Positions 333 through 8,598 of a DNA stretch of 11,781 nt are shown here, one piece after another (the stretch's first letter is position 1; each line of letters opens with the position of its first letter). A model generated the notes under the pieces. The model ran no database searches. It was given only the letters and a program-made list of their open reading frames with translations, and was not told where the DNA came from. The position numbers were made by a program, and so were the translations under genes. Source of the DNA: Candidatus Parvarchaeota archaeon (GTDB lineage Archaea > Nanobdellota > Nanobdellia > CSSed11-243R1). Where the stretch lies: NCBI GenBank assembly GCA_003563585.1, contig PWUQ01000056.1, positions 1-11,781 of the forward strand, in the 5' to 3' direction.

Positions 333-614
333 TTATTCTCTTGCTTGGGCTTTTAATAGTTCTTTTATCCTTGGTCTAACATCTCTGCTAACTTGTTCTA
401 TTAGCTCTTTAGATTTACCTTCTAATCCTTTAGCACAATTTTTACATATTTTTTCTCTGAAAACTTCCATAGTAGGACCTTTCCATTTCATACCAAGTTC
501 CAAGCTAAATGTTTGTGTACAAGGATTGCAAACGTCTTTTTCACAAACAGGACATTTACCTGAAGAGATTCTGTCTCCACAAACATCACAAACCCTAACA
601 TTTACTTCTACCAT
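333..614 (-). CDS. Small zinc-ribbon protein with four CxxC motifs
   Basis: A 93-residue soluble protein. It has four CxxC pairs: C9/C12, C21/C24, C29/C32 and C57/C60, enough to bind two zinc ions. The C-terminal third (about 64-93) is charged and probably helical. I cannot assign a function. Small multi-CxxC proteins of this kind are common in archaea and may bind nucleic acid or a protein partner. The start is supported by a good Shine-Dalgarno site, AGAGGTG on minus (620-626), five bases upstream. A TATA-like box lies farther up at about 646-660. The eight-cysteine membrane protein follows one base after the stop, so the two form a short operon. Confidence 0.8.
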   Translation of the reverse strand: MVEVNVRVCDVCGDRISSGKCPVCEKDVCNPCTQTFSLELGMKWKGPTMEVFREKICKNCAKGLEGKSKELIEQVSRDVRPRIKELLKAQARE

Positions 615-660: not shown

Positions 661-680
661 TGTAAATGCGGCGACCGGGA

Positions 681-732
681 CTTTCATAACCTTTCTTTTG
701 GTAAAACTTTTCTTTCGCAAAGAAAAGGTTGT
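681..732 (-). other. tRNA intron 3, in the T-loop (59/60)
   Basis: A 52-nt intron between A59 and T60 of the tRNA-Gly. The junction folds as a bulge-helix-bulge. The T stem is the outer helix. TTCA (735-738) pairs with TGAA (683-686) as the central helix. The three-base bulges are AAA and AGT, cut after their second base. After one C-A mismatch the intron closes with a 7-bp helix, AACCTTT (724-730) with AAAGGTT (688-694). An alternative 9-bp hairpin, CTTTTCTTT with AAAGAAAAG around GCG (707-727), is also possible. The intron shares sequence with intron 1. Confidence 0.82.
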
Positions 733-753
733 TTTGAACCCGGGTCACAAGCT

Positions 754-772
754 ATTTGCTGTTTTTCAACAG
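754..772 (-). other. tRNA intron 2, canonical anticodon-loop position (37/38)
   Basis: A 19-nt intron between A37 and A38. The fold is a textbook bulge-helix-bulge. The anticodon stem is the outer helix. Anticodon-loop bases TTGC pair with intron GCAA as the central 4-bp helix. The three-base bulges are CAC and ATA. The intron ends in a TGTT/AACA stem capped by a GAAA tetraloop. Confidence 0.87.
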
Positions 773-795
773 TGGCAAGCTCGCATCCTAACCAT

Positions 796-851
796 TCTCC
801 AACCTTACCTGCAGCTCCTTTTTATGAAGCTTTTTTTCGCAAGAAAAGGTC
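796..851 (-). other. tRNA intron 1, in the D-loop (about 16/17)
   Basis: An intron of about 56 nt in the D-loop. A bulge-helix-bulge can be drawn. The central helix is TCTA (854-857) with TGGA (798-801, one G-U pair). The three-base bulges are GGG (851-853) and GAA (795-797). The inner helix is ACCTT (846-850) with AAGGT (802-806). The outer helix is weak, so this is a relaxed form and the ends may shift by one or two bases. Splicing as drawn gives a ten-base D-loop containing GG followed by TTA; a cut two bases earlier on the 5' side and one base later on the 3' side would leave the commoner AGTGGTTA loop. Confidence 0.72.
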
Positions 852-891
852 CCTAGACTATCGCCGCATTAAAACTAAAAAAATTATTAAG

Positions 892-3777: not shown

Positions 3778-4110
3778 ATGGTGTATTGGATGGGTTTTTT
3801 TATGAAAAACAAAAAATTGGGCACTTGGATGATATTCATCAGTATAATTTCAGTAGTTTTAGTTGGCTCTTTTTTAAGTGGTTATTTCTTATTTGAAGAT
3901 TCTTCATTCATAGAAGAACTCGAAGAAGACTCAGTAGTTTTAGTTTTTGGAGAGAAAGAATTATCCTTCGGATATGTTAATGATACTAATGTTAATTGGA
4001 TATTGCAAGAAGATGTTAACGCAACTGTATTAGTTAGTGGAAAAAGCGGTGTTATAATTGACCCTTTGCTTTTAGATGAGACTTATCTTAAAGATGAGAA
4101 TTATACTTAA
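3778..4110 (+). CDS. N-terminal part of an interrupted secreted subtilase (signal anchor and start of propeptide)
   Basis: A 110-codon frame that ends at an in-frame TAA (4108-4110). The same frame continues without another stop to 8598 as the subtilase. Residues 9-14 (MKNKKL) are basic. Residues about 16-36 are hydrophobic and form a signal peptide or anchor. The following acidic, beta-rich part reads like the beginning of a subtilase prodomain. Three in-frame ATGs are possible (3778, 3790, 3802). The TATA position favours 3790 or 3802, and GGTG (3780-3783) lies six bases before 3790. Alone this would be a small secreted peptide. Its sense comes from the downstream half, which lacks any export signal. 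The break may be a nonsense mutation, a sequence error or a readthrough site. Confidence 0.7.
   Translation: MVYWMGFFMKNKKLGTWMIFISIISVVLVGSFLSGYFLFEDSSFIEELEEDSVVLVFGEKELSFGYVNDTNVNWILQEDVNATVLVSGKSGVIIDPLLLDETYLKDENYT
4108..4110 (+). other. In-frame TAA that splits the subtilase reading frame
   Basis: The reading frame is open from 3778 to 8598 except for this one codon. It lies in the second arm of a 9-bp inverted repeat, TTATCTTAA (4083-4091) and TTAAGATAA (4107-4115). TAA is the normal stop of several neighbours (taw1, bud32, eS1, eS31), so it is not a globally reassigned codon. Confidence 0.85.
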
Positions 4111-4134
4111 GATAATCTTCCTGTAATTGTTTTT

Positions 4135-7100
4135 TTGGATTGTGGGGGAAATGCGAAAGATCCAATTAGTTTAATGAATGTTGAATCTACTTTTAGCAAT
4201 TCAAGAAATTTATTTCAAAGTAAATACACTCTAAAAAATACAATACCTACTTTTTGTGCGGTTTCTGTTGATATAAATGAAACAGAATTAAGAGAAATTA
4301 TTTCTTTAGATTTTGTTCAAGGAATATTTCTTGATAAAAAATATCACGTGAATCTTAATGAGTCCATCGGGAGAATAAACGTTGAGGAAGTTTGGAATCT
4401 TACTGATTCAAATGATTTTTATGTAAATGGGACAGGAATGACTATAGCTATTTTAGATACAGGCTTAGATTTTGAACATCCAGATTTCCAAGGAAAAGAG
4501 ATATTATACGAAACCTTTATTCCAAATCCACCTTCAACAGACAAACACGGACATGGAACTCATGTAGCTTCCATTGCAGCTGGAACTGGAAATGCCTCAG
4601 ATGGAAATTTTACTGGCGTGGCTCCAGATGCGAATTTGATAGTTGGAATGGTTATGAGACCACAAGGTTTCGGACATACATCAGAGATATTAAATGGTAT
4701 AGAATGGGCAATAAATAATGAGCCAGATGTTATAAGCATAAGTTTTGGCTCAGGACTTTCTGGAGATGGAACTGATTTAATTTCTCAAGCCTTAGATTAT
4801 GCTGTAGAACAAGGAATTGTTGTATCTGTTTCTGGAGGAAACTTGGGAGAATACGGATTTTTTTCTACTGGTAATCCTGCTTCTGCAAGAAAAGTAATAA
4901 CGGTTGGAGCATATGATAAACACACAGGAGAGACTGCTTTTTTTAGTAGCAGAGGTCCAACTTTAGATGGAAGATTTAAGCCAGATGTGCTCGCTCCAGG
5001 TGTTTATATATGTGCTGCAAACTCGTCAGAAGGAAGTATGGGACGTACAGAAGGAATAGGTATATGTGACAATGAATATTATTTGGGTGCTTCAGGAACT
5101 TCTATGTCTTCACCACATGTTGCTGGTGCTGCAGCTCTTATACTTCAAAAAAATCCAGAGTATACTCCAGAAATTATAAAATCTATTTTTATAATTACAT
5201 CTGAAGATTTAGAAAATTCTTTTTACGAACAAGGAGCAGGAATAATAAATGTTTATAACGCAATAAATTCGGAAATATATACAGAACCATATTCTATAGA
5301 TTTTGGGATAATATCTAATGAAACAATTAAAAATAAAGTGGTTAGAGTAGAAAATTTGATGGATGAAACAATATCCTTAAATTTATCTGAAACTACAATT
5401 GTTGATGAAAATGGAGAAGTTTTTGATATATTAAATTTGAATAAAACAAGTCTAGAAATAGAATCAAAAGAATCTGGTTATTTTGAAATTGAATTAGAAG
5501 TTGATGATGACTTATTTGGATTTAGTAAAGGATACGTGAAGATAGAATCAAACCAAATGAATTATTCAATTCCAGTAGCTTTCGGAAGATACGCTAGAGT
5601 CGTTGTAGGTGTTTCAGACGGAGACACTATTTTAAGACCTCATGCTATATTGGTTTACAATAGAGATGATTATTCAGATTTTAAACTTGTTAGAAATGAT
5701 AAAAGATTTGGAACTGAATTTGGAAATAATTACACGTTTTTTTTGAGAGATGGAAATTATAAGATTGTAGTGATTGGAGACCAACTATTCGAAAGTCCTA
5801 CAGAACATTTTAAAGATTATAATTACATATTAGGAGAAGATTTAGATATAACTTATAAAGATAATTTAATGAAAATTTATGATTTAAATGAAGTACCTGT
5901 AATAAATTATCCAACTAACTCTTTTGATGAAGAAAAATTAAAAGTTGAATATCTCGAAGGAATGTTAAAATGTGATTTTGATGGTGACATGTATAGGTTC
6001 CAATATTTTATTTTGAATACTTTTCATGAGAGTACTGGAAAATTTTATATTTCAAATAATATATGTAACGAACAGGAATTTTATTTAGGATTTTATGGAA
6101 CTTTAGAGGACCCTCATGAAGTTTCAATTGACCCAGAGAATAAAAGCTTTGTTCAACAAGAATATTATTTTGGAGGCTGGTTGGTTGATGAGTATATCGA
6201 AAATGAAATATATTTAGATTTTGAAAACTATAGCACAATTGATTTGGAATATTTAGTTCCTTCGCATGTAGATTATGATTTATATTTATACGAATCTTCA
6301 CATATCGCTGCAGCGAATTTTTGGCTTCAACCATATTGGTTTTCACAATTTGCAATAGTAAGAAGGCATTATGTGCCCTTTGAGAGAATTAACTATCATT
6401 TAAGTGATGGATGGAACTATAGACATATGAATATACTAAATTATGCAGAACACAATCACCAAATTAGAGAAAATTTAAATCCTTTTAGGATTGAAATAAA
6501 CGAAACTCCTATGAATTACAGTTTTTCTTCAGGAAAACACACATATAATTTCACATCCTTTCAACCTTACATATATACTATATCAGATACACAATATTTA
6601 AACATAACTACTGTTGGACCCTCAGTTATTTCTGGAGGGGGAAATATATTCTCAAAAAATTCGCATACTACTAGTCCTTTGATAAATCCAACTGTGTGGA
6701 TATATTATAATGGAAACCTTATAGATAATTTTCCTAGAACCTCCATGAATTTTTGGAACTCTTTTAGTCAGGCAAGATACAGCAAAGGAAATTACTTAGT
6801 TGAAATGAATTTACCTATAGCATACCCAGTTCCTAATAATGTTTTTATAAGTGCGGAATTTGATTATGATGAAAACATAAATTTGCCTGTGTTTATGGGA
6901 ATTCAATACGAACCATTCTTCGATTTTGAAGAACCTATGGAGATATATTTTGAATTTAATAATGAGGAAACTGTTTCATTCGAATATAAATTTGAAGGGG
7001 GAGATTGGACTGAAAAAACAGTGGAAATTGTAAATGATTCATATTTTGTAAATATTACTGAACCAGAAAATCAATATGTAGATTTTAGAATAAACGCAAC

Positions 7101-8598
7101 AGAAGAAGGAGGAAATCCAGTTTCTTATACAATAACTCAAGCTGCATCACCTCATAGAATGGAAATCTCCGTTCATTTTGATTTAAATACAACTACTGCT
7201 TATCCAGGAGATTTTCTAAAAATAGAAGGCAATCTTGGTATAGAACCAGAAGGAGCAAAAGATTTTAGATTAACATACTTGATGGGTGATGAAAGAGGTT
7301 ACATATACACATATTCAAGTGAAAATTTATTTGAAAAAATTATTCAAGTACCTGAATCTGTAAACAATGAAATAATAAATTTTACAATAATGTTTGAAGA
7401 AATGGGTGCGTATGAACAAGGATTAAAAAAGACGGAAATAGATATTATAATACCATTTAAACTTTCTACCGAAGATAAATACCATTATGTTTCAAATGAA
7501 GATTCATTTAATTTATTTTTAGATATTGAAAATTTATTAACTGTAGAAGATTATTATGAAATATCATATCAAACTAATTTAGAAAATGTAGAATTTGGTA
7601 TATCAAATCCAACCATACCAGCTATGAATAACAAAACATCTATAATAGAAATCGATTTAGATGATGAGTCATGTGGCAATTATTTTATAGATATATCTGT
7701 TTTGTCGACTGTTACTGGTTACACTTCGACTCAAAATTTTGATATAGAAGTTTATTCATTAACGCCTCCGGAAATAACAATATTATCTCCTCAAAACCAA
7801 ACATATAGTCAAAAAGAAATAGAACTTAATGTAACTGCAGATAAAGAGATAGATACTTGGTGGTATTCTTTAAATACTGCAGAAAATCAAACATTTGATT
7901 CAAACACAACGATTATAGCACAAGAAGGTAAGAACGAAATAGTTGTTTGGGGAAATGACACATTAAATAACATAGGTTCTAGTGAATTAATTTTTACTGT
8001 CGAAATAAAAAAATCAACCCCGAGTCCAGGAGGTCCAACTCCACCAGTACAAGAAGAAATTGAAACTAAAATAAAAAGAGAAATAGATTCAATTACATTT
8101 GAAAATATATTTGCAGGAGAATTATATAAGATAACTGAAGATTATTCTTTTTCAATAAAGGAGATTATATTTAAAAACAATTTATCTAGTGGAGAAATAA
8201 ATCTTTTTATGGACTCCAAGCCAGATGTCGAAATTCAGAACTCTTATTTATATCTCAGGATTCAAAAAGATTTTTCAAATGAGGATATAGAACATTTAAT
8301 TTTAGCATTTAATGTTTCAAAAAATTGGGCTGAAGAAAATTATATCAACTGCGAGAGTATATCTCTTTTTAAATTTGAGAATCAACAATGGAACGAACAA
8401 AAAACCAGTTTCGTTGATGAAGATGAACATTATTGTTATTTTGAATCTGAGTTAGAAAGTTTATCTTATTTTGCTATAGCTGGTGAAACAGAAATAATTA
8501 CATTTTTTGATGTATTGAAAGCTATTGATGAGTATTATAGTGGGATTATTGACTTTTGGGAAGTTTTAGTTATGATAGATAATTATTACTTGGTGTGA
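4135..8598 (+). CDS. Giant secreted subtilisin-like serine protease (S8), main part
   Basis: The frame is open from 4111; 4135 is only its first possible TTG start. The start encodes most of an I9-like propeptide (VIVFLDCGG onwards), about residues 1-75. The S8 domain spans about 90-380, with catalytic D108 (AILDTG), H140 (HGHGTHVAS), S323 (GTSMSSPHVAG) and oxyanion N236 (SGGN), so the protease looks intact. An Fn3-like domain probably follows (about 385-485). The large middle part (about 490-1205) is unassigned, aromatic and rich in N-x-S/T sequons. Then come an Ig-like domain (about 1211-1288), a Pro/Gly linker (PSPGGPTPP), a PGF-pre-PGF-like domain (about 1308-1450) and a helical tail with two similar FxxVLxxIDxYY units (1452-1487). 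The role is probably surface or secreted proteolysis. There is no PGF-CTERM anchor. The 3' end overlaps the convergent GTPase gene by 13 bp. Confidence 0.9.
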   Translation: MDCGGNAKDPISLMNVESTFSNSRNLFQSKYTLKNTIPTFCAVSVDINETELREIISLDFVQGIFLDKKYHVNLNESIGRINVEEVWNLTDSNDFYVNGTGMTIAILDTGLDFEHPDFQGKEILYETFIPNPPSTDKHGHGTHVASIAAGTGNASDGNFTGVAPDANLIVGMVMRPQGFGHTSEILNGIEWAINNEPDVISISFGSGLSGDGTDLISQALDYAVEQGIVVSVSGGNLGEYGFFSTGNPASARKVITVGAYDKHTGETAFFSSRGPTLDGRFKPDVLAPGVYICAANSSEGSMGRTEGIGICDNEYYLGASGTSMSSPHVAGAAALILQKNPEYTPEIIKSIFIITSEDLENSFYEQGAGIINVYNAINSEIYTEPYSIDFGIISNETIKNKVVRVENLMDETISLNLSETTIVDENGEVFDILNLNKTSLEIESKESGYFEIELEVDDDLFGFSKGYVKIESNQMNYSIPVAFGRYARVVVGVSDGDTILRPHAILVYNRDDYSDFKLVRNDKRFGTEFGNNYTFFLRDGNYKIVVIGDQLFESPTEHFKDYNYILGEDLDITYKDNLMKIYDLNEVPVINYPTNSFDEEKLKVEYLEGMLKCDFDGDMYRFQYFILNTFHESTGKFYISNNICNEQEFYLGFYGTLEDPHEVSIDPENKSFVQQEYYFGGWLVDEYIENEIYLDFENYSTIDLEYLVPSHVDYDLYLYESSHIAAANFWLQPYWFSQFAIVRRHYVPFERINYHLSDGWNYRHMNILNYAEHNHQIRENLNPFRIEINETPMNYSFSSGKHTYNFTSFQPYIYTISDTQYLNITTVGPSVISGGGNIFSKNSHTTSPLINPTVWIYYNGNLIDNFPRTSMNFWNSFSQARYSKGNYLVEMNLPIAYPVPNNVFISAEFDYDENINLPVFMGIQYEPFFDFEEPMEIYFEFNNEETVSFEYKFEGGDWTEKTVEIVNDSYFVNITEPENQYVDFRINATEEGGNPVSYTITQAASPHRMEISVHFDLNTTTAYPGDFLKIEGNLGIEPEGAKDFRLTYLMGDERGYIYTYSSENLFEKIIQVPESVNNEIINFTIMFEEMGAYEQGLKKTEIDIIIPFKLSTEDKYHYVSNEDSFNLFLDIENLLTVEDYYEISYQTNLENVEFGISNPTIPAMNNKTSIIEIDLDDESCGNYFIDISVLSTVTGYTSTQNFDIEVYSLTPPEITILSPQNQTYSQKEIELNVTADKEIDTWWYSLNTAENQTFDSNTTIIAQEGKNEIVVWGNDTLNNIGSSELIFTVEIKKSTPSPGGPTPPVQEEIETKIKREIDSITFENIFAGELYKITEDYSFSIKEIIFKNNLSSGEINLFMDSKPDVEIQNSYLYLRIQKDFSNEDIEHLILAFNVSKNWAEENYINCESISLFKFENQQWNEQKTSFVDEDEHYCYFESELESLSYFAIAGETEIITFFDVLKAIDEYYSGIIDFWEVLVMIDNYYLV

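Follow-up and report, generated by a model that had tools for sequence, protein, structure and literature searches.

The 11,781-nucleotide stretch of DNA analysed here (the window) carries a tRNA-Gly(GCC) gene with three intron-like inserts, and by their sequence introns 1 and 3 are copies of one interspersed element of about 40 nt. The reading that we prefer, with a probability of roughly 0.7, is that the gene yields a spliced tRNA-Gly(GCC), and that its introns 1 and 3 come from a portable repeat that has turned into a bulge-helix-bulge (BHB) intron in structured RNA genes. A BHB is a 4-bp helix between two 3-nt bulges, and it is the motif that the splicing endonuclease cuts. An earlier sequence-only reading of this DNA had recognised the triple-intron gene; it overlooked the repeat kinship of introns 1 and 3, because other sequences are needed to see it. 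Our comparison centred on six genomes of one family (G000 to G005); all genomes compared are incomplete assemblies, the window's own (G000; 536,796 bases, 112 contigs) being 71% complete. We infer that the host is a DPANN archaeon.

A tRNA-Gly(GCC) gene interrupted at three sites

The gene lies on the minus strand, a point absent from the sequence-only reading. Its layout, together with that of an open reading frame (ORF) used as a synteny marker, is as follows:

667..867, minus strand: tRNA-Gly(GCC) gene, 201 nt, 72 nt after in-silico splicing (ARAGORN on the joined exons, and synteny)
853..867, minus strand: exon 1, tRNA positions 1-15 (ARAGORN on the joined exons)
795..852, minus strand: intron 1, 58 nt, D-loop 15/16, putatively repeat-derived (core match 816-849)
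773..794, minus strand: exon 2, end of the D-arm and anticodon GCC, up to position 37
754..772, minus strand: intron 2, 19 nt, canonical site 37/38, no repeat origin recognisable
733..753, minus strand: exon 3, positions 38-59
681..732, minus strand: intron 3, 52 nt, T-loop 59/60, putatively repeat-derived (model match 688-728; exact pattern 693-728)
667..680, minus strand: exon 4, positions 60-73
333..614, minus strand: zinc-ribbon-like ORF (by eye; without a Pfam match), synteny marker

Read along the minus strand, the 5' part consists of the acceptor strand GCGGCGA, U8 and A9, the D-arm stretch GUCUAG and then, after 58 nt, UGGUUAGGAU. The anticodon arm runs CGAGC UU GCC A and, beyond 19 nt, A GCUUG, with UGAC as the variable region; in the T-arm, CCGGG UUCAAA is separated by 52 nt from U CCCGG, which is followed by the acceptor strand UCGCCGC and A73. 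When 852-795, 772-754 and 732-681 are removed, ARAGORN calls the 72-nt joined exons tRNA-Gly(gcc), which bears out the earlier claim of a triple-intron tRNA-Gly(GCC) with inserts in the D-loop, at 37/38 and in the T-loop at 59/60; the joined length had been given as 74 nt and is 72 nt. The BHB folds were also as described, two clear and one relaxed: the 4-bp central helix is paired at 3/4 positions for intron 1 (relaxed) and at 4/4 for introns 2 and 3. ARAGORN makes no call on the unspliced 203-nt stretch at this locus, and in the whole window no tRNA is found by ARAGORN, nor by Rfam at its gathering threshold. The earlier warning that scanners may miss this gene therefore holds for the two that were run, ARAGORN and Rfam, which overlook it and would report tRNA-Gly(GCC) as absent.

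A second tRNA-Gly(GCC), for which the earlier reading had suggested a check, was not found in the 71%-complete assembly of the window's genome. That genome does contain a tRNA-Gly(UCC) gene, on contig C92, with three inserts at sites identical to those in tRNA-Gly(GCC). A sequence resembling a tRNA-Gly remnant, with the element, adjoins this C92 gene. The syntenic tRNA-Gly(GCC) gene is also interrupted in the relatives: by three inserts in G001 (D-loop, anticodon loop and T-loop), by two in G004 (D-loop and anticodon loop) and by three in G005 (D-loop, anticodon loop and a third between positions 53 and 54). Once these inserts are removed, ARAGORN calls each of the three orthologues tRNA-Gly(gcc), and in each, as judged by eye, the start of the zinc-ribbon ORF follows the gene as it does in the window. 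The D-loop site holds versions that differ among G000, G001, G004 and G005, and the insert at the 37/38 site is element-like in both G004 and G005. On contig C9 of G004, the D-loop intron of tRNA-Gly(GCC) (L378) is seemingly one element nested within another.

Introns throughout the tRNA set

For a view of the whole tRNA set, 20 tRNA genes of G000 were assembled by hand from RF00005 and similarity matches, each being checked by ARAGORN; some of the anticodon introns were placed by ARAGORN, and the intron of the C89b gene is uncertain. Seventeen of the 20 genes have introns (27 in total, eight of them at the T-loop 59/60 site); the three without any are tRNA-Arg(GCG), an initiator-like tRNA-Met and tRNA-Pro. 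We excluded from this set a bacterial-looking tRNA-Asp with an encoded CCA (contig C87; L008 86-159), the contig being probably foreign to G000. As described in PMC8450103, archaeal tRNAs have up to three introns each, and the highest count among the genomes assessed there is 71 introns in 46 genes; the 27 introns in 20 tRNAs of G000 are of that order.

The BHB central helix has at least 3/4 pairs in all 15 introns tested of these 27 (4/4 in 11; mean 3.73), as against a mean of 2.40, with 45% reaching at least 3/4, in a control in which exon and intron ends from different sites were paired. At 24 borders in seven hand-spliced genes of the relatives, where the borders were set by eye, the helix is 4/4 at 10, 3/4 at 7 and 2/4 at 7. 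The genome G002, which belongs to another genus, has 36 RF00005 matches versus 16-19 in the other family genomes, and for this reason it looks less intron-laden. Differences are also seen within a genus: G000 has a T-loop intron in tRNA-Gly(UCC), and G001 does not.

Four tRNA-Leu genes of G004 and G005 (L134, L115, L317 and L322) have introns in the D-loop, anticodon loop and T-loop together with a 33-34-nt insert in the variable arm, and are called tRNA-Leu after four cuts. We considered the variable-arm piece as a fourth intron and set it aside: its BHB is weak (2/4 or 3/4) and it may instead represent a long variable arm. In view of that weak BHB, the maximum number of introns that we claim for a gene is three.

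One repeat family with a three-strand core

A search of G000 with the tRNA-Gly(GCC) gene matched six other places, five of them through the intron 3 region; the sixth was tRNA-Gly(UCC), matched along its length. Introns at the D-loop, anticodon and T-loop sites approximate one core, roughly CCTTTTCTTTGnGAAAGAAAAGCTnnACCAAAAGAAAAGG, and the T-loop introns of several G000 tRNAs have nearly identical sequences. Similarity between introns at different sites gave a mean local score of 28.0 (57 pairs) versus 16.6 (sd 0.57) for 60 dinucleotide shuffles. Similar introns are found, then, in different tRNAs and at different sites, which is the hallmark of the Thermoproteales type. Intron 2 of tRNA-Gly(GCC) is without likeness to the element, although at 19 nt it is too short to tell, and the T-loop intron of tRNA-Met looks unlike the element family. 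Our model R1 uses sequence alone and was built from 8 trimmed copies; a single model made from intronic and intergenic copies detects both kinds. With a loose T-loop pattern, for which the backward pattern also matched in the family (up to 2 per genome), 17 loci of the relatives were read, G002's three being left out: 12 are tRNAs and 5 are not.

The element has three strands: a pyrimidine strand and a purine strand, joined in a hairpin that contains a C.C mismatch, and then another purine strand. Strand 1 is X-C-CTTTTCTT; a loop follows, and then strand 2, AAGAAAAG-C-X'; a linker that mostly ends in ACC leads to strand 3, AAAAGAA(AAGG). In the hairpin of strands 1 and 2, X pairs with X', the variants of X/X' including CGA/TCG, GCA/TGC, CAC/GTG, AAC/GTT, ACA/TGT and TGA/TCA, among others. 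Strand 3 is the mirror image of strand 2; within introns, its additional pairing with strand 1 creates the inner BHB helix.

The third strand is present in 191 of 198 hairpin cores, a count that is not independent since a pattern that includes all three strands helped to select the loci. X was left free in that pattern; among the 191 cores with a third strand, 181 have an X that is the reverse complement of X'. In cores other than those with AAA, X and X' are complementary in 82/90 (shuffle mean 8.8, maximum 18, in 2000 shuffles); a narrower covariation expression had given 52/52 in a first test. In 87 family loci (150,246 bases) there are 102 hairpin cores; X pairs with X' in 90 of them, and 98 have the third strand, the corresponding means from 20 shuffles being 0.2, 0.0 and 0.1. 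Because of shared ancestry, the copies counted here are not independent events.

Copies inside and outside tRNA genes of the family

Model matches in the six family genomes number 395 at E ≤ 1 (50, 46, 38, 64, 91 and 106), many of them weak. We classified by eye 100 of the better matches (42 in G005, 23 in G004, 14 in G003, 11 in G000, 7 in G001 and 3 in G002), and 68 of these 100 lie inside tRNA genes, every one in the sense orientation. The tRNA-internal share is 30/42 in G005, 16/23 in G004, 9/14 in G003, 7/11 in G000, 5/7 in G001 and 1/3 in G002. The remaining 32 comprise intergenic copies, copies in 16S-23S spacers and downstream of tRNAs, a tandem pair (L137), and copies in rRNA and RNase P RNA matches. 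One of them, within a 16S rRNA gene match (L116, G005:C8:3208-3238), is a BHB-bordered insert, the removal of which presumably restores the 16S sequence. In G005, the Rfam match to RNase P RNA contains a copy in antisense (L131 782-821), and a similar insert is found in G003 (L337), at a place with no Rfam RNase P match at gathering. A further antisense copy is located inside a 23S rRNA match (L330, G004:C22:18540-18578), where it adjoins an apparent sense copy. The cores avoid ORFs of at least 100 codons: 24/101 lie within them in the family loci, versus 0.65 for random positions, and 29/105 in the genome_contigs loci described below, versus 0.83 at random positions.

Three loci deserve separate description. 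At G005:C10:129077-129112 (L129), the element separates two near-identical short coding starts (CTTCAATGGCAC) that look like the start of a threonyl-tRNA synthetase gene. A copy is conserved in two species at the seeming 3' end of the same gene (L147, G000:C45:1784; L150, G001:C53:4146). Beside the D-loop insert L074 there is a 10-bp direct repeat, no more than a candidate for a target-site duplication.

Copies in other archaea

The exact pattern CCTTTTCTTN{1,10}AAGAAAAGYTNNACCAAAAGAA occurs in at least 118 stretches of genome_contigs. The 80 exact-pattern matches listed are all archaeal by title and come mostly from ANME-1/Methanophagales; also among the matches listed are Bathyarchaeia, Altiarchaeota, Diapherotrites, Micrarchaeota, Woesearchaeota, Parvarchaeota, Aenigmatarchaeota, Methanosuratincola and others. 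At 55 ANME-1-titled loci, X is AAA in 59/68 cores, and, to the extent that flanks of 70 nt reveal it, none of the ANME-1 copies read is tRNA-internal. By eye, the ANME-1 loci (L155-L234) contain many AAA-type copies, often with an inverted second unit of the CCTGTGCTAAG type adjoining. Outside ANME-1, the copies at a Micrarchaeota locus (L225), a Diapherotrites locus (L182) and a Woesearchaeota locus (L206) each lie in an apparent tRNA gene, again as judged by eye.

The exact pattern is present in 5/371 genomes of an evenly drawn sample from the window's phylum; three of the five belong to this family, and the element is patchy on that account. G005, which has exact copies, is not in this sample. 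The pattern read backward is present in 0/371 of the same genomes. Carriage of the element by viruses, plasmids or phages was considered and rejected: the exact pattern has 0 matches in viral_contigs, and the element pattern has no match in plasmids and phages. These plasmids and phages are the non-archaeal controls for the element pattern, and the statement that all matches are archaeal refers to the 80 listed.

Splicing endonuclease and transposase genes

A PF01974 gene on contig C21 of G000 encodes a protein of 177 aa with 66-76% identity to those of G002, G004 and G005, in each of which a single copy was found; none was found in the incomplete assemblies of G001 and G003. The residues Y, H and K, which we take to be catalytic in the M. 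jannaschii alpha4 endonuclease, are kept in this gene and also in a gene on contig C95 (L047 378-941, minus strand). We considered the C95 gene as a second endonuclease subunit of G000 and set it aside because it is only 38-40% identical to the family protein; by its sequence, the C95 contig is probably foreign to G000. The sequence-only reading had associated triple-intron tRNAs with endonucleases of broad specificity, a link that finds no support in the C21 gene, which is family-like and retains Y, H and K. Typing of the endonuclease, also suggested there, turned up one alpha-like gene each in G002, G004 and G005, its close counterpart on C21 of G000, and no gene in G001 and G003. The family may have a divergent or missing endonuclease subunit, such as a beta subunit that falls in an assembly gap. 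As described in PMC6379350, relaxed BHBs are removed efficiently only by (alpha beta)2 and epsilon2 enzymes. Many of the introns here are strict BHBs, which an alpha4-type enzyme could process; the weaker ones fit less clearly. The occurrence of non-canonical introns in a family whose sole confident endonuclease looks alpha4-type bears on the requirement for broad specificity (PMC6379350).

A Y1 transposase was considered as the mobiliser of the element in the family and set aside, PF01797 having been found in 0/6 family genomes. PF01797 is present in 10/10 genomes reached via ten ANME-1-type loci (one has Methanosarcinales in its title), and an element copy is found in 4/10 fetched transposase loci of these ANME-1-type genomes.

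A proposed route from repeat to intron

In the reading that we prefer, the host's BHB splicing endonuclease and ligase would remove the three introns from the precursor RNA to give tRNA-Gly(GCC). The element's inverted strands 1 and 3 would supply the inner helix of the bulge-helix-bulge, and because each copy carries these strands, a landed copy could be spliced. The outer 4-bp helix depends on the site, since the last bases of the insert must match the upstream exon: the insert ends with UGAA after UUCA in the T-loop, with GGA after GUCU in the D-loop, and with the complement of positions 32-35 in the anticodon loop. These site-dependent ends suggest either that insertion is guided by a match to the exon (as in reverse splicing) or that only matching inserts survive. 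Insertions into a structured RNA gene would be spliced out and tolerated if their 3' end pairs with the upstream exon; copies landing elsewhere would persist as intergenic repeats; and repeated gain, replacement and decay of copies could give rise to the intron-packed tRNAs of this family. If copies were simply inserted as DNA, in either direction, the sense orientation of all 68 tRNA-internal copies would not be expected. This orientation speaks for an RNA step or for a fold that depends on orientation, and the antisense copies outside tRNAs argue for DNA-level movement as well. We incline, with some reserve, to a broader proposal: a non-autonomous archaeal three-strand hairpin repeat may act as an 'introner' for BHB introns, one that brings the inner BHB helix with it, inserts into genes for tRNA, rRNA and other structured RNAs, survives through removal by the endonuclease, and would have made most of the non-canonical introns in the family, including those of triple-intron and perhaps four-intron genes.

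The direction of events could be the reverse, the introns coming first: excised (circular) intron RNAs would be copied back into DNA, at other tRNAs, at rRNA and at intergenic sites, and the repeats would be retro-copies. Reverse splicing would give just the sense orientation seen in 68/68 tRNA-internal copies of the 100 matches read, and intron ends that pair with the upstream exon could guide such RNAs to a target. We nevertheless hold this to be unlikely, albeit worth serious attention, bearing in mind that the element is common in ANME-1, where the copies read are not in tRNAs as far as the 70-nt flanks show and where, unlike in the tRNA copies, AAA is so prevalent as X (59/68 cores at 55 loci); antisense copies in the RNase P RNA and 23S matches are also at odds with it. 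Alternatively, introns might have spread among tRNA genes only, in the style of Thermoproteales (a process proposed by Fujishima et al. 2010, as summarised in PMC4090602), in which case the intergenic repeats would be an unrelated hairpin family. The nearly identical T-loop introns of several tRNAs fit that proposal, but the three-strand core, the C.C mismatch and the X:X' rule are common to intronic and intergenic copies, and one model made from both finds both, so that we consider it distinctly improbable.

Two further alternatives would dispense with a mobile repeat or with splicing. Convergence, by which AT-rich genomes yield AT-rich BHB introns, takes its appeal from the AT-richness and low complexity of the introns, but the shuffle controls are exceeded, the linker and the third strand are shared, the backward pattern is in 0/371 genomes, and the strict pattern is spread over several archaeal phyla, going by record titles; these controls already count against convergence for most copies, and we find it scarcely credible. 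That the locus is instead a decaying pseudogene with unspliced insertions would be in keeping with the apparent tRNA-Gly remnant, with the element, beside the C92 gene. It is very unlikely, given that this is the only tRNA-Gly(GCC) found, that in four species the exons at the syntenic place join into a clean tRNA-Gly, and that tRNA-Gly(UCC) has inserts at the same sites; by the same logic, 17/20 tRNAs would be dead.

Relation to known systems

Triple-intron tRNAs, non-canonical sites and the spread of introns between tRNAs are already known (PMC11291895, PMC4090602, PMC8450103). What is added here is that the introns are tied to a recognisable element with extragenic copies and with relatives in several archaeal groups, features that, along with the element's anatomy, make intron gain traceable species by species. 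Our literature search, of open-licence papers, found no paper linking archaeal tRNA introns with an interspersed repeat.

In Thermoproteales, tRNA introns have transposed between tRNAs by a mechanism that is called unknown, and supposedly acts at the DNA level, in the account of PMC4090602. The present introns resemble those described there in being near-identical at canonical and non-canonical sites, in their recent gain and in their BHB borders; unlike those, they belong to a host outside the order Thermoproteales, in a DPANN family, and the intron family is also found outside tRNAs and in other archaeal groups. Intron gain from a mobile element has been proposed for tRNA gene disruption in Caldiarchaeum (PMC3293823), although the element described there is plasmid-like and integrates at tRNA-Thr, whereas here a repeat of about 40 nt is the intron itself, in many tRNAs. 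In the Asgard lineages Atabeyarchaeia and Freyarchaeia, most tRNA genes are interrupted, as here, and more than half have multiple introns, often at non-canonical sites; those introns are not tied to a repeat family in the text available to us of PMC11291895.

Among repeats, there is a likeness in form to the bacterial intrastrand-triplex repeats PIT, BoxC and TM_ECO, the last of which is always intergenic in E. coli MG1655 (PMC4666352). PIT and TM_ECO share with our element a length of about 37 nt, a pyrimidine stem, a purine stem, a second purine strand, intergenic positions and many copies. As described in that source, TM_ECO has a G/C-rich sequence and a second loop of 3 nt, whereas the present element is A/T-rich with a longer second loop, has the covarying X:X' across a C.C mismatch, and serves as an intron in RNA genes. 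REP and REPIN sequences are also short hairpin repeats, accompanied by RAYT (Y1) transposases (PMC2817692, PMC3116915); the ANME-1 copies, often beside an inverted second unit by eye, are reminiscent of these, but unlike REP with RAYT, the element occurs here without a Y1 transposase in 6/6 family genomes. Eukaryotic introners are mobile elements that create introns by means of their own splice signals (PMC11782384). They are spliceosomal, whereas the introns here are of the BHB type, for the tRNA splicing endonuclease.

Elsewhere in the window, positions 3778-8598 encode a very large subtilisin-like (Peptidase_S8) protein that is apparently split: an ORF of 110 aa stops at 4108-4110, and an ORF of 1487 aa with the S8 domain starts at 4135.
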